DNA of 64,000 nucleotides from Methanosarcina acetivorans C2A (GTDB lineage: Archaea; Halobacteriota; Methanosarcinia; Methanosarcinales; Methanosarcinaceae). The notes beneath the pieces are model-generated. The model ran no database searches. It was not told the origin of the DNA and was given only the letters and a program-made list of their open reading frames with translations. Made by a program: the position numbers and the translations under genes. The stretch lies in contig NC_003552.1 of the NCBI RefSeq assembly GCF_000007345.1, positions 4,216,001-4,280,000 on the forward strand. Direction: 5' to 3'. Shown here piece by piece: positions 16,564-35,829 of the stretch (position 1 is its first letter; every line of letters starts with the position of its first letter).

Positions 16564-18789
16564 TTGAAGAAAATAAATTCCCTACTGTTTGCATTTATGA
16601 TCTTATTTCCGTGTTTTTACGGCAGTTCTTCCCTTGCCGCCGGAAGTTCCGAAAACTTCGAGTTGTCCCAGAACAATACTTCTCTTTCAGAACCTTCGAT
16701 TGAAACGGCTCCCCTGAACCCTGACTTTCTGGAACCTGAAGGCTCAGAGTCAACTGACCCTATTTCTTCTTCTGAAGAGGAAGATTTTTCAGGTACCGGA
16801 TATACTCCATCTCCGGTAAGCCTATCAGGGCTTTCAAGGCCTGCCGAAAGGCTTTTACTTAGAGCATCAGCTTCGGAACTCCCCGCAACTTTCGATCTGC
16901 GCACTGAAGGCCTGGTTAGCTCTGTGCAAAACCAGGGAAATACCGGAAGCTGCTGGGCTTTTTCAAGCCTTGCATCCTTTGAATCTTACATTCTGGGGGC
17001 AGAAGGAGAAAGTTGGGACTTTTCCGAAAATAACATGAAAAACCTCGTTACAAAATACTATTCCGACGGTTTTGACTTTGATGTCAATGACGGAGGAAAC
17101 GCTTTCATGGCTATGGCATACCTTGCCCGATGGGCAGGGCCTGTAAACGAAACTGAAGACCCTTTTAGTGAGACCTCTATCTCCTCCCCTACAGGACTTC
17201 CCGTGCAAAAACATGTTCAAGAAGCGCTCATACTGCCTGACAGAACGGGCCCTCTGGACAATGGGGTGATAAAACAGGCACTTATGGATTACGGAGCTGT
17301 GTATTCCACGATGTACATAGATAAAACGATCTATTACCAGGAAAATAACCATGCCTATCTATACACAGGATCGGGTAAAGTCAACCATGCAATAACCATC
17401 GTAGGCTGGAACGATTCATTTGACAGGAACATGTTCAAACAAATCCCCGCAGGAGACGGGGCTTTTATTGTAAAGAATAGCTGGGGCGAGTCCTGGGGGG
17501 AAGGAGGATATTTCTATATTTCCTATTATGACACCAGGCTCGGATACGAAGAAAATGCCGTGTTTACGGCTGCAGAGCAGGACAACTTTGACTACAATTA
17601 CCAGTATGATCCACTCGGATGGATAAATCAGATCGGGTACTCCGGATCTTTAACTGCCTGGGGTGGCAATGTATTTACTTCGGGAGGGGACGAAATACTT
17701 GAGGCTGTAGGATTCTATACTACGGATCTCGATACGGCTTACGAGATATATGTTTACAAAAACCCGACAGATGGTCCCCTCAGTCAGTCGGGGAGTTTTG
17801 TTGCAAATGAAAACGGGACCTGTGCATTTCCTGGCTACCATACTCAGCTGCTGAGCTCGCCAGTAGACCTGAGTGCAGGGGAAAAATTTTCAGTGGTTAT
17901 CAAGTTCAGCAATCCTTCCTCCGAAAACCCGCTTGCCCTTGAGTATAAGCTTTCCGGTTATAGCAGCAAGGCACGGGCCAATTCCGGAGAAGGTTATATC
18001 AGTTCAAATGGAATCAGCTGGCAAGACCTGACATTAGTAGAAGATAAAGTATACGACTATTCCGAAGCAAACCTCTGCATAAAGGCTTTCACCATTGTTA
18101 GCGGTCTCCCTGAGGCTGACTTCTCGTCAAATATCACCAGCTGGGTTTCTCCTCTTACAGTCCAGTTTACCGACCTCTCTAAGGATGCCTTTTCCTGGGA
18201 ATGGGACCTGAACGGGGACGGAATTGTGGACTCAACAGCCCAAAACCCGGTCTATACCTATAGCTCCAACAAAACTTATACCGTTTCGCTGAATGTCAGC
18301 AACAGGAACGGGCTTGACTCCGAGACAAAGACCAATTACATAACAGTTGCCCCACTCTCAATCCTCTCTGCAAGCCCAAACGAAAATGTTACAACCTATG
18401 AAGAAGAAGGGGAGCAGGCGTTCAGCATCAGCACAAACCATAACAGCACTGTACGCTGGTACCTTAACGGGGTGTTAAAGAGTTCCGAATCCGGTGTTAC
18501 AAGCAGCTCCTATTCCAACAGTGCCCTCTCCCCCGGAACTTATACTGTTACCGCTCGCGCTGTAACAGGAAGCGAAACGGTTGCACGCACCTGGACCTGG
18601 ACAGTCCGCGACTGGAACCCCTGGGACGATTCGACCTCTCAGGAAGGAACTGACATAAGCACAGGAGAACTCCAGGAAGCGATACATGTCTATAAAAACA
18701 ATCTCCCTGTCCCGAACACAGGGGTAGAACTGACAAGTTCCAGGCTCGAGGAACTTATATGGCTCTGGCGTGAAGGGTCTGCAAATTGA
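16564..18789 (+). CDS. Secreted papain-family (C1A) cysteine protease with PKD domain
   Basis: A 741-residue exported protein. Signal peptide is residues 1-26. An acidic linker leads into the peptidase core: oxyanion Gln124, N-T-G-S-C-W-A-F-S with nucleophile Cys130, V-N-H-A-I with His275, and K-N-S-W-G-x-S-W-G with Asn305. A lectin-like beta region follows (about 330-515), then a PKD domain (A-D-F-S ... W-E-W-D-L-N-G-D-G ... Y-T-V-S-L) and a W-T-W-T-V-R surface-protein repeat. It lacks a membrane anchor, so it is probably released or held by the S-layer. The start is TTG 16564. Substrates are likely extracellular proteins. Confidence 0.92.
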   Translation: MKKINSLLFAFMILFPCFYGSSSLAAGSSENFELSQNNTSLSEPSIETAPLNPDFLEPEGSESTDPISSSEEEDFSGTGYTPSPVSLSGLSRPAERLLLRASASELPATFDLRTEGLVSSVQNQGNTGSCWAFSSLASFESYILGAEGESWDFSENNMKNLVTKYYSDGFDFDVNDGGNAFMAMAYLARWAGPVNETEDPFSETSISSPTGLPVQKHVQEALILPDRTGPLDNGVIKQALMDYGAVYSTMYIDKTIYYQENNHAYLYTGSGKVNHAITIVGWNDSFDRNMFKQIPAGDGAFIVKNSWGESWGEGGYFYISYYDTRLGYEENAVFTAAEQDNFDYNYQYDPLGWINQIGYSGSLTAWGGNVFTSGGDEILEAVGFYTTDLDTAYEIYVYKNPTDGPLSQSGSFVANENGTCAFPGYHTQLLSSPVDLSAGEKFSVVIKFSNPSSENPLALEYKLSGYSSKARANSGEGYISSNGISWQDLTLVEDKVYDYSEANLCIKAFTIVSGLPEADFSSNITSWVSPLTVQFTDLSKDAFSWEWDLNGDGIVDSTAQNPVYTYSSNKTYTVSLNVSNRNGLDSETKTNYITVAPLSILSASPNENVTTYEEEGEQAFSISTNHNSTVRWYLNGVLKSSESGVTSSSYSNSALSPGTYTVTARAVTGSETVARTWTWTVRDWNPWDDSTSQEGTDISTGELQEAIHVYKNNLPVPNTGVELTSSRLEELIWLWREGSAN

Positions 18790-21654: not shown

Positions 21655-22428
21655 TTACTGGCATATATTTCCTGTTTTTATTCCCTGTTTCTTCCTTTCT
21701 TTCAGCCTGTAACTTTCCCCTTTGATGTTAATCGTAGTTGAATGGTGGAGAATCCTATCAAGTACAGCAGCCGCTATTACATGGTCCTTGAATATCTCTC
21801 CCCATTCTCCATATGATTTATTTGATGTCAAGATCGTTGAACTCTTTTCATACCGTCTTGAGATCAGCTGAAATAGGCAGTGAGCTCCTTCTTCGTCAAA
21901 TGGGAGATACCCTATTTCGTCAATTATCAGCACTTTATATTTCATCAAGTCCCTTAGTTTCTTTTCAAGCATTCCTTCTCGATTTGCTATTTTCAACTTC
22001 TCGATAAGGTTTCCTGTATTGGTAAAGTAAACCGAAATCCCTGCTTTTGCTACTTCAATCCCAAGAGCGATTGCAAGATGAGACTTTCCAACTCCGGGAG
22101 GACCAAGGAAAACGACATTCTCTGAATTATGAACAAATCTCAAGGTTGCAAGGTCTTCGATTGCTTTTTTATCAATGGATTTCTGAAATTCAAAATCGAA
22201 TTCCTCAAGAGTCTTTTTAACGGGAAAAACTGCACTTTTCATCCTTCTCTCAATTGCAACAGCTTCTCTGTGTTTCTTTTCCTGTTCAAACAAGTAATCA
22301 AGGACTTCCATTGTTGTCTTGTTGTCCCTTGCAGCAATTTCAAGGTAGTTATCCAGAAGCTCTTCGATAGAATTAAGTTTCAGGTATTGCAGGTTATTGT
22401 GAAGTCTCTCATAGGTGAAGTTGTTCAT
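21655..22428 (-). CDS. istB: IS21-family helper ATPase IstB
   Basis: A 257-residue AAA+ ATPase with G-P-P-G-V-G-K-S (Walker A, residues 109-116) and L-I-I-D-E (Walker B, 167-171). An arginine-rich C-terminal region ends D-R-I-L-H-H-S-T-T-I-N-I. It is the target-selection partner of the IstA transposase. Its ATG overlaps the istA stop in ATGA, the usual IS21 coupling. The gene is intact. Confidence 0.93.
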   Translation of the reverse strand: MNNFTYERLHNNLQYLKLNSIEELLDNYLEIAARDNKTTMEVLDYLFEQEKKHREAVAIERRMKSAVFPVKKTLEEFDFEFQKSIDKKAIEDLATLRFVHNSENVVFLGPPGVGKSHLAIALGIEVAKAGISVYFTNTGNLIEKLKIANREGMLEKKLRDLMKYKVLIIDEIGYLPFDEEGAHCLFQLISRRYEKSSTILTSNKSYGEWGEIFKDHVIAAAVLDRILHHSTTINIKGESYRLKERKKQGIKTGNICQ

Positions 22429-23668
22429 TCAAAACCACCTTCACTAAATATTTCATAGACATCAAGAGACCTTTTTTCAACTTCGGGATCTGAGAACTTC
22501 AACGGGATCTGTGAATCTTTTTTGCATTTTGAGTTCTCTTTAAGAATCTCACTCAGGAGACCCTGGAAATGTTCCTTTTTCCTTGAAACTCTGCAGTTTC
22601 CAGGAAGGATTTCATGTTCACAGACTTTCTCATAATCAACATAGACCTCGAATATTCCTTCAAGGATCTGAAGCTCTGCAGTTCTCCCTGCAAACCTGTA
22701 AGGAACAGAATACTTATTCCAAGGAACGAAATATAACAGTCTCTGGAGACCTTTCTGGTCTCCTTATGGACAACTTTGTAAGGAGGAACCTGATCCAGAG
22801 GGCTCAGTTTCTCCTCCTTAAAGCGTTCAAGAGGGATTTGATAGGTTGTTCCGTGGACAGTTGAATTTACCCTTTCCAACCAACTGTGAACTTGGGCGTT
22901 CAGGTCTTCGAGAGAGGTAAACCTTCTTCCAAGGAAGAAATCCCTCTTGACGAAACCGACTGTATTTTCAATTTTCCCTTTTGTCTGAGGCCTGTAAGGC
23001 CTGCATAACCTTGGAATAAAACCAAAGCATTTGAAGAAATCCTCAAACTGTGGGTTCCATTCGGAATCTGATGATTTTAAGGCTCTTTTGATAACAACCT
23101 GTTTCATGTTATCATAGAGGATCTCCTGTGTAAATCCTCCAAAGTACTCAAAAGCGTTCAGATGACACTGAATAAGAGTGGGAGTGTCTATGCTCAGTGT
23201 AAATTCAACATATCTCATTCTGGAATATCCAAGAATCATGTTGAAGCAAAAGAGTTTCTTTACCTTTCCATCAACCTCAACTGTTCCCATCTCTGCCCAG
23301 TCAACCTGAGCCTGTACACCTGGTTTTGTTTCATAGCGGAGTACAGCAGGGACTCCCTGTTTAGGTCGGACTTCTCTTACGAAGTCCTTGACTATGGTTT
23401 TTCCTCCATCAAAACCCATTTCTTTGATTTCCCTATAAAGGCGAACAGCAGTATAAGGACCTTCTTTGAGTTTTTCTTGTATGTAAGGTTTGAAAGGATC
23501 AAGTTTACTCGGTTTTGGCGGACGTTTCTGAGGTTCTGGGGCAGTTTTCTTTTTAAGATATTTCCTCACAGTTTCCCTAGCATAACCTGTTCTTCTAGAG
23601 ATCTCACTGATGCTGAAGCCTTGTGAATACAAATCTCGTATCAATAGCCATTCCTCCGTTTTCAGCAT
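22425..23668 (-). pseudogene. istA: IS21-family transposase IstA, frameshifted
   Basis: The N-terminal helix-turn-helix (residues 14-38) and the DDE core are present: Q-V-D-W with Asp123, L-Y-D-N with Asp186, and K-I-E-N with Glu234. After I-S-F-L-G (about base 22728) the frame is lost. Shifting by one base restores N-K-Y-S-V-P-Y-R-F-A-G-R and a normal C-terminus that ends in the ATGA overlap with istB. One indel near 22725-22730 thus truncates the product at 22553 with about 50 aberrant residues. Confidence 0.88.
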
Positions 23669-31125: not shown

Positions 31126-31247
31126 CCCCCACCCAAGATAATTATTTGTACAACTTGAAGTCTCATACTGCTGGTTTCTCAGTTTAATTGTACAAGTTCA
31201 AAAGTAAAAATCCAAAAATATTGAAACCCTCTTTTACCTGACTCATC

Positions 31248-31636
31248 GAGCTCGTCCCAAAAGTAGTATTATATTAAAATTATATATTTACTTTTATGTC
31301 ATTTCATGAAATAGAGATGTTCTATGGGAATCCATAGAACCTTATCTTCCCCCACAGAAATCACATGCAGGAAGACCACGTGAAAATATTAGGAAGTTAT
31401 TTAGCGGTATTTTGTACGTTGTTATGACAGGTTGTACCTGGAAAGATGTTCCTCGCCGCTATGGATCTAAGTCAACGGTCCATAGATTTCGTCTTCACCT
31501 GTAAGCCGATCCCAAAACTCAAAATTTGCTTATTTGGATCTCTTAGTTTAAGTGACTAATCGGGCTTTTGATTACGAAAGCAATCCTGAATAACGTTCTG
31601 ATAATCGAAATTAAAACTGGGTTTTGGGATGAGCTC
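31248..31636 (+). mobile_element. Deletion derivative of an IS5-family element
   Basis: A 389-bp element has terminal repeats GAGCTCGTCCCAAAA (31248-31262) and the reverse complement of GAGCTCATCCCAAAA (31622-31636), one mismatch. Inside is a transposase fragment. A clear target duplication is not visible. The left end sits about 120 bases upstream of the acetyltransferase start. Confidence 0.75.
31325..31504 (+). pseudogene. IS5-family transposase N-terminal fragment
   Basis: The frame reads W-E-S-I-E-P-Y-L-P-P, R-P-R-E-N-I-R-K-L-F-S-G-I-L-Y-V-V-M-T-G-C-T-W-K-D-V-P and ends T-V-H-R-F-R-L-H-L stop. This is the N-terminal DUF4096-type domain of IS5/IS1182-like transposases. The start codon and the whole DDE core are missing. 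Confidence 0.82.
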
Positions 31637-32369
31637 ATTGTATTCCGCTACTAACTGTGTGAGGGGTTAAATTCGAACCCTCATGTAACTCATACAGAGC
31701 CTCTGTGACGGATTTTATAATGGATAAAATATTGGCTCTTCGCTATTTCCTGTGGCTTGGAAATATTTGCATAGTTATAAAGTAGCCAAGCCAAAAAGAG
31801 AAATATTGAGTTTGAATGTGATTTACAACGGCAAATGTATCCAAATTTTATAGATGTTCTTTCGATATTTAGGAGATGATTTAAGTTACCCATCCGAAAC
31901 AGTGAAGAGCCGAAATATATTAATAATCTTCTCTAATCTCTTTTTCGCATTATCTGCCAGTTCACAACATTAGCCAAGAGATTGAAAAAGGAAAATGACA
32001 AATATGAATAAACCGGCAGCCAAGCCGTTTATAAAAATATCAATAGGAATAAAAGATTCGATTCCAACCGCTTTTGACATTTAAACCCCTCTCTAACATC
32101 TCCGTTTGCTCCTTTTTGGAGATGACCAGTATAGAATACTTCTTTACTGTATAAAAATCTAAGTGGTGCAGGGTGAAGATATTCTTTAGTCCCGCTTTAA
32201 CTGTAAATACCTTGTTTATCATTTTTCGTTATCGTTTACCGGTTAGTTTGCAGGTTAACTATATTGTTTCTCTAAATACGGATAATTCTTAATATAAATT
32301 GATTTCGAAAATACTTACTTTATCTGTCTTTTTATAGTGCAGCCGCATTGTAAATCTTGTGACTGTAAC
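31637..32369. other. AT-rich intergenic region left of the nuclease/HEPN pair
   Basis: About 730 bases with only short frames (for example minus-strand 31690-31893 and 32040-32222). They have no recognisable family or ribosome-binding site. It probably contains the promoter of the nuclease gene (AATATAAATTG near 32289). Confidence 0.55.
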
Positions 32370-33350
32370 ATGGATGAGCCAATACTTGACAATTTTTCGT
32401 ATCATTATCCACCTGAGCTTCTAGAAGTTTTGATAGAAACAATTCCAACGCTTGTCAAGTCGAAGCAAGCTTTACTTTCGTTTTTTAGAAATGCTGGCGT
32501 GAGCAGCTCTACGTTAAAACCTTATGAGGATATAGTATCAAGGGATAGAAATGCTATCAAGATGTACGATATTGCTCGTGGTGTATTGATAGAGTTGAAT
32601 GAGCAAGGAGATAAATCTCTTTCCACAAGGCGTAAGATTCTAAAGGCAGTTGTTGATTTTGAAGACTTTGATACCTGCTGTTATGAAAATCGACGTAACG
32701 AGGCTAGAGGTTTGGTTTGGAAGGTGCGAGAAATCGTAAATAGGAAAGATTCCTTCACCAGAATGCGTATTGAGAGAGACAACGAGAAACTTAAGAATAT
32801 TCGGGAGAAGGAAGCTGCTTTAGTTGCAGAGAAGAAGAAAAAACAGGAACGTATCAAAAGAGTACAAGCTGATTTATCTTCGTTGCTTAAGAGTGAAAAC
32901 CCTCACAAGAGAGGTAAAGATCTTGAAAAGGTGTTAAATGAACTCTTTGCCTGTTATGGAATTCTAGTTCGTGACTCCTTCGTGATAAAAGGGGATTGTT
33001 CTGAAGGGATTATCGAACAGATTGACGGAGCGATTGAGCTTGATAATGCCTATTACATAGTTGAAATGAAGTGGTGGAAAAATACTATAGGTAGACCTGA
33101 AGTGATAGACCATATAGTTCGTATAGCTAACAGAGGCGGGCAGGTAAGAGGACTTTATATATCATTTTCTGACTACTCTGATGCAGCTATTAGTGAGTGC
33201 AAGAATGCTTTAAATCGAAATGTGTTAGTGGTATTGGCAACAATTGACGAAATATTTAGAGTACTTGAAGCTGATGCTGATTTGAAGAGCTGGCTAAAAG
33301 CGAAAGAACAAGCTGCTGTTCTGGACAAAAAACCCTATGTGAAAGTATGA
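32370..33350 (+). CDS. PD-(D/E)xK restriction-endonuclease-like protein
   Basis: The protein has 326 residues from ATG 32370; a GTG at 32337 would add 11, including C-K-S-C-D-C. Numbering here is from the GTG. Residues 20-140 are an all-helical N-terminal domain ending in F-T-R-M. Residues 145-180 are a Lys/Glu coiled coil. Residues 190-320 form an Mrr-like nuclease: G-K-D-L-E-K-V-L (Glu197), Q-I-D-G-A (Asp230) and I-V-E-M-K-W-W (Glu243, Lys245). The catalytic set is complete. It has no methylase partner and is followed 30 bases later by a HEPN-like gene on the same strand. A DNA-cleaving defence protein is the likely role. Confidence 0.82.
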   Translation: MDEPILDNFSYHYPPELLEVLIETIPTLVKSKQALLSFFRNAGVSSSTLKPYEDIVSRDRNAIKMYDIARGVLIELNEQGDKSLSTRRKILKAVVDFEDFDTCCYENRRNEARGLVWKVREIVNRKDSFTRMRIERDNEKLKNIREKEAALVAEKKKKQERIKRVQADLSSLLKSENPHKRGKDLEKVLNELFACYGILVRDSFVIKGDCSEGIIEQIDGAIELDNAYYIVEMKWWKNTIGRPEVIDHIVRIANRGGQVRGLYISFSDYSDAAISECKNALNRNVLVVLATIDEIFRVLEADADLKSWLKAKEQAAVLDKKPYVKV

Positions 33351-33380
33351 TTGTACTGAGAGTATCAAGAGCTGTTGAAT

Positions 33381-34268
33381 ATGGAACAAAATTATCATAT
33401 CGTGCCAATAAGATATGACTATTCTGATTTTGAATTGTTTCTAAGGTTTATTGATACTATTGAGCCTCCGATATTTCTCGAGTACAATGATTCTAAAAAA
33501 CGAGATATAAAAATCTCTTATGCGTACAAATGGGCCGATTCACTTAGAGATAAATTTGATGCCGTATCAATCCTCTATAATGAAGTTTTGTATCAGATAC
33601 CGAGATGGAAAAGTGAATTACAACAAACAAAAGAAAAAGGGTATGGTACTACTATTCAGCAAACAATTCTTTTAGTCAGGTATGAGACATTCATTAATTC
33701 AATATACAGTTTTTGCGAAAACATTGGTTTCCTTGTGACAGAACTTTACCCTAAAGCAAATTTACCACGTAAATTTAATGAACAAAAATCAAAACGTTTG
33801 GAAACTATAAGAGGTTTTGATGATTACTACGCAAAGATGTTAGAATCTGCGGATTGGTATGATGAAGTTCATTCTATGAGATCAGAAGCAACTCACTATT
33901 TATCAGTATTCATATTTATTTCAGATATAGAGGAACCAGGCTATTTAAACAATAAAGTGTATAGCGAAAGAAAAGGGCATCCTGAAGGAATTGAAGTAGA
34001 AAACATAGAGAAACATATTAGAGAAACATATAGTAAGTTATATTCTTTTGTAAATGAATTCTCCAAGCATATTATAGAACTAAGGTGTAATAAAGAAAAG
34101 CCAGTTTGCTCTCTATGTTTATATGGTGGTGGAGGTCTAAGTGGAGTCCGTACAATGACACTAAATGATTATTTCCTTAGGAATCCTCCCAGATGTGAAG
34201 CGTTATGGTTTAATTGTCCTATTGATGAAAAATGTAGTGCGTCAAATAAACCATCTGAGAGAAAATAG
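33381..34268 (+). CDS. HEPN-like (Cthe_2314-type) protein, putative RNase partner
   Basis: A 295-residue helical protein that I cannot place with certainty. The segment S-M-R-S-E-A-T-H-Y-L carries R167-x4-H172, the catalytic motif of HEPN ribonucleases, in a helix as in Cthe_2314-like HEPN domains. An aromatic-rich four-helix core surrounds it. The C-terminal 60 residues hold V-C-S-L-C-L and three more cysteines (R-C-E, N-C-P, E-K-C), perhaps a metal-binding tail. Only 30 bases separate it from the nuclease gene, so they are probably co-transcribed. ATG 33381 is the chosen start. Confidence 0.6.
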   Translation: MEQNYHIVPIRYDYSDFELFLRFIDTIEPPIFLEYNDSKKRDIKISYAYKWADSLRDKFDAVSILYNEVLYQIPRWKSELQQTKEKGYGTTIQQTILLVRYETFINSIYSFCENIGFLVTELYPKANLPRKFNEQKSKRLETIRGFDDYYAKMLESADWYDEVHSMRSEATHYLSVFIFISDIEEPGYLNNKVYSERKGHPEGIEVENIEKHIRETYSKLYSFVNEFSKHIIELRCNKEKPVCSLCLYGGGGLSGVRTMTLNDYFLRNPPRCEALWFNCPIDEKCSASNKPSERK

Positions 34269-34272
34269 TAGA

Positions 34273-34287
34273 TGAGCTTATCCCAAA
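34273..34287. repeat. Solo IS-end sequence to the right of the nuclease/HEPN pair
   Basis: GAGCTTATCCCAAAA matches the 15-bp ends of the 31248-31636 element with one or two changes. It faces the right end of that element in inverted orientation, so the two genes between lie within an inverted pair of IS ends. Confidence 0.6.
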
Positions 34288-34356
34288 AGCCATTTTTACT
34301 CCCATATTGGGAGGTGCCCATAACTATTTTCCTGATCAGTATTTCGATCGTTCCTT

Positions 34357-34536
34357 TCAAAGAGCTATTGTATACTCTTTTTCATTCTCGCTCTCATTTT
34401 CTTTCTCTTTAGCACGACTTTCTATGTACTTTTCAGCTTCATTGAGCTTTTTCCCTAAATGTGAGAATATAAGTAAAGCGGCTATAACAATGACAATTAA
34501 AATTGCAATTATTTGCAAAGATTCAGAATCGATCAT
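34357..34536 (-). CDS. Small single-pass membrane protein
   Basis: A 59-residue frame: M-I-D-S-E-S-L-Q, then a continuous hydrophobic helix (I-I-A-I-L-I-V-I-V-I-A-A-L-L-I-F, residues 9-24), then a highly charged Lys/Glu tail predicted to be cytoplasmic and coiled. The composition is that of a real membrane anchor rather than noise. It has no known family. It lies opposite the nuclease/HEPN pair at the edge of the AT-rich island. Confidence 0.5.
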   Translation of the reverse strand: MIDSESLQIIAILIVIVIAALLIFSHLGKKLNEAEKYIESRAKEKENESENEKEYTIAL

Positions 34537-34719: not shown

Positions 34720-35829
34720 ATGAACAATCATAGCGAAACAGAAAGTTCAGGTCATAATTCAGTTCACGGTAACAACGATAATATTCCAGGCTGGAATGAA
34801 GAGCTTGAGCTGGCATTTTCTGCCTACAAAGGCCTCTATCTTGCCGGAAGAATCTCATCAAGGCATAAAACGGTCTGCGAGGTCCTTGTACCGGGAGCTG
34901 TCGTACAAGCAGGAATTTCCGGAGCCCTCCAGCGAATCGGTAAGCAGCCGGTTGTAGGGGATTTTGTCGTTTTGCTTGACCAGCCTGAGACTGGTTCACG
35001 CATGGTTGTGAATATCCTGCCCCGAAGAACTTGCCTTTCAAGGGGTGCAGCAGGAGACGGGGGCGGAGAGCAGTTAATTGCCGCAAATCTTGATACCATC
35101 TTTATCGTTACTTCCGTGGGAAAGGACCTCAACCTTCGAAGGCTTGAACGGTATCTTGCCATTGTATATTCTTCCGGGGCAAGCCCGGTGATTTTGCTTA
35201 ACAAGATTGACCTTGCGGATGACCCTGCCCGATTGGTCGAAAAAATCCGGGACGTTACAGGGGACGTGCCGGTAATTCCATTAAGTGCCCTTTCGAAAAC
35301 CGGGCTTGATGCGCTTGGCCCTTATCTCAATCCAGGGGAAACCGTGGCACTCGTAGGTTCTTCAGGGGTCGGGAAATCCACGCTTATCAACGCTTTTCTT
35401 GGCGAAACCGTCCAGAAAACCGCAGATATCCGAAAAGACGATGAAAAAGGCAGGCATACAACTACAGTCCGCCAGATGTTCCTTCTTCCGAACGGAGCAG
35501 TTCTTATAGACAACCCCGGAATCAGGGAAATCCAGCTCGGAGACTCTGCAGAAGGGCTTGAGAAAGCTTTTTCCGAGATCGTTGATGCAGCACGTAATTG
35601 CAAGTTTAAGGACTGCACTCACCGAAACGAACCGGGTTGTGCTGTCCTGCAGGCGGTAAGGGACGGGATTATTCCTGAGGAGAGGCTGGAGAGCTATCAC
35701 AGGTTGACTGACGAACTCTCATTCCAGTCAAAAAAAGCTGAAATCGGACTGAAGCGGCTGGAAAAGGAAAGATACAGGGAAATGGCAGTGAACATTAAGA
35801 AATATCGGAAATTTACGGGAAAACCGTAA
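34720..35829 (+). CDS. rsgA: Ribosome small-subunit-dependent GTPase RsgA
   Basis: A 369-residue circularly permuted GTPase: OB-fold N-terminal region (about 35-105), N-K-I-D (G4, 161-164), S-A-L (G5), G-S-S-G-V-G-K-S-T (G1, 213-221), T-T-T (G2) and D-N-P-G (G3, 264-267). A zinc knuckle follows with Cys294, Cys299, His301 and Cys307. RsgA checks late maturation of the 30S subunit. It is mainly bacterial, so its presence in this archaeon reflects old transfer. The first 28 residues are a polar extension. ATG 34720 follows a TATA-like element near 34685. Confidence 0.93.

Follow-up and report, generated by a model that had tools for sequence, protein, structure and literature searches.

Type IV methyl-directed restriction enzymes of the Mrr_cat family (PF04471) are built around a PD-(D/E)xK core with a D-ExK site and stand alone, without a methylase. 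A second group of interest is Lamassu, an ABC-three component (ABC-3C) system encoded by an lmuA-MC2-lmuB operon. A third is the HEPN superfamily of RNases, which has R-x4-H as its defining active-site motif; examples include AbiF/AbiD, AbiJ, Cthe_2314, HepT of MntA-HepT, and DUF3644, the last of these described as a HEPN domain (PMC3710099). In archaea, antiviral genes are poorly catalogued (PMC12988326).

Here we compare these systems with two adjacent genes of Methanosarcina acetivorans C2A, designated A (32337-33350) and B (33375-34268, or from 33381 with the alternative start). Coordinates refer to the window, the whole 64,000-nucleotide stretch of DNA that was analyzed (positions 4216001-4280000 of the single-contig, 5,751,492-bp genome). 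The pair had been put forward as an undescribed two-gene defense module, and both open reading frames were found, on the plus strand. The predicted spacing of 30 bases is exact when B starts at the ATG at 33381. Such a gap between genes on a shared strand is the arrangement expected of an operon, and A and B are probably co-transcribed in M. acetivorans. Their GC contents, 38.8% for A and 32.1% for B, compare with 49.4% for an rsgA-type GTPase gene, 48.6% for a nitroreductase-like gene, and 43.1% for the window, in agreement with the description of the pair as AT-rich relative to its ordinary neighbors (48-49%).

Mobile-element pieces lie upstream of A, and gene B is followed by the rsgA-type gene (34720-35829, plus strand; PF03193, E = 3.8e-49). 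This gene serves as a conserved flank for synteny, with matches, mostly full-length, in 22 of 31 genomes of the genus. Three relatives carry a partial second rsgA copy, made up of start and end pieces, just upstream of the full gene (L105:4566-5036, L106:4540-5076, and L107:5101-5723). A PADLOC scan of 10 other window proteins revealed no credible defense gene. The matches obtained were DrmD (E = 6.3e-48), a misleading hit to the IstB of an IS21-type istA/istB pair at 21655-23668, and mad2, which corresponds to ordinary methyltransferases. Elsewhere in the window we noted a Schlafen/AlbA_2-domain gene (396-1676; PF04326, E = 2.3e-23) that is possibly defense-related or regulatory, and a papain-family protease with PKD and lectin-like domains (16564-18789), a probable cell-surface protein.

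Gene A and the defense contexts of its relatives

Gene A spans 337 codons from a GTG at 32337; however, the ATG at 32370 is the likelier start, because a homolog with 72% identity (L032) starts MEEPILDNFSYHYPP. The C-terminal half of the protein matches Pfam Mrr_cat (E = 1.1e-6; 29.2 bits against a cut-off of 21). The complete D-ExK site originally noted in A (D230, E243, K245) is present; across 13 homologs its first two residues never vary, and K245 is kept in at least 90%. An AF2 model (mean pLDDT 85) is all-helical to residue 185, which confidently reproduces the helical N-terminal domain that had been proposed, and then adopts a restriction-endonuclease fold. Foldseek searches with this model returned PD-(D/E)xK proteins, the best being MspJI (E = 4.9e-4), with FokI and Cdn1 ranking lower. 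The Pfam assignment, the conserved D/E/K residues, and the fold match together make the identification of A as a PD-(D/E)xK nuclease of the Mrr kind well supported, as had been predicted. Like the type IV enzymes, A has the D-ExK core and stands alone without a methylase, but it differs from them in its long all-helical and coiled-coil N-terminal half. A itself has no match in PADLOC; a bacterial homolog (L007) matches the PADLOC model mREase_IV (E = 7.7e-8).

Within the order, A-family matches are found in 18 of 186 genomes at E<=1e-3, about ten of them close (at least 44% identity). Homologs are also carried on three plasmids, from Azotobacter, Klebsiella, and Citrobacter (41-43% identity), and on one viral contig (44%). 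In all four the A homolog lies directly upstream of the ABC-3C/Lamassu genes lmuA-MC2-lmuB and overlaps the next gene by 4 bases, forming a four-gene Lamassu-type operon with an extra Mrr-type nuclease gene before lmuA (L007:5983-10428, L008:5974-10422, L009:5983-10431, and L064:5974-10422). In L007 the genes downstream of the homolog match LmuA (E = 1.9e-134), MC2 (E = 2.2e-52), and LmuB (E = 3.6e-201). The lmuA of this operon has a weak Mrr_cat match of its own, and the L064 copy adjoins an integrase-like gene. Although these bacterial relatives (41-44% identity) constitute the first gene of the operon, A is not LmuA: it has no CTD and corresponds to the extra gene upstream. Neither lmuA, lmuC, nor lmuB is found beside A in the M. 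acetivorans window, and Lamassu membership, judged by an LmuA/LmuB operon, is therefore true of the bacterial relatives only.

A different setting was found in two archaeal genomes, G141 and G143. There the A homolog overlaps hsdS on one side and, by 4 bases, a DUF3644 gene on the other (PADLOC PDC-S19, E = 1.8e-169), the three genes running head to tail within a type I restriction-modification locus (L039:6411-9591, minus strand; L040:4971-8166, plus strand); hsdM and hsdR were confirmed in G143. As in M. acetivorans, an A-family nuclease directly precedes a HEPN-type protein. However, no relationship between DUF3644 and B could be detected, and in G141/G143 the pair sits within the operon, with hsdS on one side and hsdR on the other. 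The other A homologs are solitary and lie beside housekeeping genes. Intact solitary copies occur in several genera, and broken archaeal copies include one that is split (G173) and one with a stop (G133).

Since A-family genes join different defense operons, A is probably a portable defense nuclease. Judging from its motifs and family, the C-terminal PD-(D/E)xK domain would cut invading DNA, and the helical, coiled-coil N-terminal half probably oligomerizes or docks to a sensor. The protein might act alone or, as its relatives in Lamassu and type I restriction-modification operons suggest, plugged into larger defense operons.

Gene B and a candidate HEPN-like family

Gene B encodes 297 amino acids from a TTG at 33375 or 295 from the ATG at 33381. 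Residues are numbered here from the TTG; R169 and H174 are thus R167 and H172 in the numbering from the ATG, under which an R-x4-H motif and a Cys-rich tail had been recognized, both of which we find. Pfam, PADLOC, NCBIfam, and PHROGs assigned B to no family, and searches of PDB sequences with the single sequence and with a profile gave nothing meaningful. Relatives occur in 5 of 186 genomes of the order, the M. acetivorans genome included, and in 6 of 393 genomes of the phylum, with two more recovered by a wider profile. None was found by tblastn in plasmids and phages or in viral contigs, and genome contigs yielded only the copy already found in a Methanosarcina MAG.

Six aligned members of this family, with identities down to 17%, share 14 invariant positions, among them R169, H174, W161, E104, C274, C281, P282, and C287. 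The C-terminal C-CP-C signature is kept in all six, as is a further cysteine near C248, upstream of the tail, whose alignment position is slightly shifted between members. The neighbors of two family members were noted. One member, at the end of a contig, is preceded by genes for an N6_N4_Mtase DNA methyltransferase and for an uncharacterized 450-amino-acid protein, and the arrangement resembles an operon of the restriction type (L054:96-4062). The other, a distant relative, lies between a PLD-like nuclease with a weak DrmC match and another gene that we take to be DUF2971 (L065:4863-8929).

The R-x4-H motif of B is predicted to lie in a helix after long helices, as in the HEPN superfamily, and is invariant across the family. 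In contrast to that superfamily, B shows no significant match to a curated HEPN model; the best HEPN Pfam model, HEPN_Cthe2314, reaches E = 0.024, below the cut-off, and does so only in a distant relative (L066). B also differs in its conserved C-CP-C tail, which follows a beta-hairpin, and in that no nucleotidyltransferase, CARF, or ATPase partner was seen for it. A structure model of B has low confidence (pLDDT 64.8 overall and below 50 around R169-H174), and a Foldseek search with it gave no match at E<=0.001. VIA-align of the same model placed the HEPN toxins 8xeh, 8xdj, 6m6w, 7bxo, and 3jrt at Z 7.0-7.7, a helix-bundle level, given that unrelated helix bundles scored up to Z 10. The original assignment of B as HEPN-like therefore stands with regard to the motif, which is conserved across a divergent family; the HEPN fold was not confirmed by the model or the structure searches.

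With this good motif evidence, the B family fits a new HEPN-like RNase family, for which it is a candidate. As predicted from the motif, B would be a metal-independent RNase using R169 and H174, and the probable ligand of its cysteine tail is zinc or an Fe-S cluster. Upon infection, the likeliest action of B would be to cut RNA, either cellular or viral, and so to halt growth.

Pairing and mobile-element surroundings

Whether A and B relatives occur together was assessed by tblastn (E<=0.01), using four B proteins as queries at 16 A loci and, conversely, four A proteins as queries at 11 B loci; positive controls were recovered. B-like sequence was found near none of the 16 A-family loci, and A-like sequence near none of the 11 B-family loci. 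The sample comprised nine other B-hit genomes, several of them with fragments, and some loci end near contig edges. A full A homolog is present in one of the nine (G174), on a different contig and in a genome in which B is truncated; in another B-hit genome (G171), a weak, partial A match (E = 5.2e-6) lies on another contig. The co-occurrence of homologs anticipated by the original prediction is thus not borne out. The prediction had held that rare adjacency of the two genes elsewhere would count against a module, and no adjacent pair was detected in any other genome. A conserved two-gene system is therefore not supported by these comparisons, and the negative result prevents the naming of a spurious one. 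What survives of the proposed defense role is the presence of A homologs in known defense operons, not the pair as a module. Because the relatives do not travel together, A and B are probably two separate defense genes rather than one new system.

Mobile-element ends lie on both sides of the pair. An IS remnant, presumably IS5-like, occupies 31247-31500 on the plus strand and consists of an imperfect IS end (31246-31262) and a transposase fragment recognized in translation (RKLFSGILYVVMTGCTWKDVPRRYG). Beside it lies a MITE-like element of about 138 bp with inverted ends (31501-31638), which is 81-87% identical to copies in L073 and L074; other copies in the genome measure about 118-135 bp. The ends of this family (TTTTGGGANNAGCTCAT) have 14 exact genomic matches, compared with 0 for a reversed control. 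On the right, the boundary stretch at 34274-34361 is made up of an element end (GAGCTTATCCCAAAAG) and the sequence that follows it, 88 bp in all, and is 89% identical to a stretch of G168. That genome keeps the 88-bp stretch upstream of rsgA in the same orientation, and both similarity and synteny break off exactly at 34274.

Short inverted repeats, read earlier as IS ends enclosing the pair, are indeed present at 31622-31638 and 34272-34288; they are, however, the ends of two separate elements and point away from A and B. We rejected a composite transposon, since the left repeat is the right, outer end of the MITE-like element and the right repeat begins the stretch that a relative keeps at rsgA. 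Comparison with relatives for an empty site located the right junction alone, because the gene of the left flank, a hexapeptide acyltransferase, is not adjacent to rsgA in them. A and B lie between mobile-element ends and are enclosed by no single element.

Readings of the locus

We consider it fairly likely that two individually mobile defense genes have become neighbors beside mobile-element ends, in a stretch that is AT-rich and has been rearranged, and that they do not form a conserved system. The patchy distribution of both families (18 of 186 genomes for A; 5 of 186 and 6 of 393 for B) was counted in favor of two separate mobile genes. Each gene, taken separately, is a plausible defense gene on the strength of its sequence relationships.

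The B-hit genomes are few and several are fragmentary, and for this reason a rare or lineage-specific module retains some probability, although we judge it unlikely. Here the A DNase and the B RNase would serve one response, with A, for example, destroying the DNA of the invader and B shutting the cell down if restriction fails. The 30-base gap on a common strand and the AT-richness of both genes between the same mobile-element ends favor such cooperation, as does the different HEPN gene (DUF3644) that an A-family nuclease abuts in G141 and G143. The latter arrangement implies that a DNase-HEPN pairing arose at least one other time in the A family, which keeps the cooperative reading alive. 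Weighing against it, A and B are adjacent in no other genome and most B-hit genomes have no A; furthermore, the two genes differ in GC content (38.8% versus 32.1%), suggesting separate origins. In a broader and equally doubtful form, the A family would be a portable DNase module that has repeatedly teamed up with Lamassu and with HEPN RNases of different families, namely B and DUF3644/PDC-S19.

It is quite improbable that the genes are functionless orphans parked by mobile-element traffic, A being left over from a larger Lamassu or restriction-modification operon and B an unrelated accessory. The bigger operons common among A relatives are absent from the window locus, the archaeal relatives of A include several solitary genes and some broken ones (G173 and G133), and the B relative in G174 is truncated. 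However, both genes are intact in M. acetivorans with all catalytic residues kept, and the intact solitary A relatives of several genera likewise speak against decay. Finally, B is very unlikely to be a helical protein devoid of RNase activity, such as an RNA- or nucleotide-binding regulator with a coincidental R-x4-H: although all HEPN Pfam models fall below cut-off and an hhalign comparison of the B and DUF3644 profiles falls short of significance (probability 0.5%), the arginine and histidine are among only 14 positions kept in six members as divergent as 17% identity, and the sole stretch aligned in the hhalign comparison is the R-x4-H motif itself.

If the broader form of cooperation were true, A and B would make up a lineage-specific DNase-RNase defense pair, and B would found a new family of HEPN proteins whose cysteine tail binds metal. 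On the favored reading of two individually mobile genes, B would still define a HEPN-like family of archaea that is small, widely scattered, and absent from the four family libraries searched. The relatives of A offer a concrete example of plug-in effectors crossing domains: one Mrr-type nuclease occurs on its own, is reused as an addition to Lamassu, and is reused again, next to a HEPN gene, within type I restriction-modification operons.
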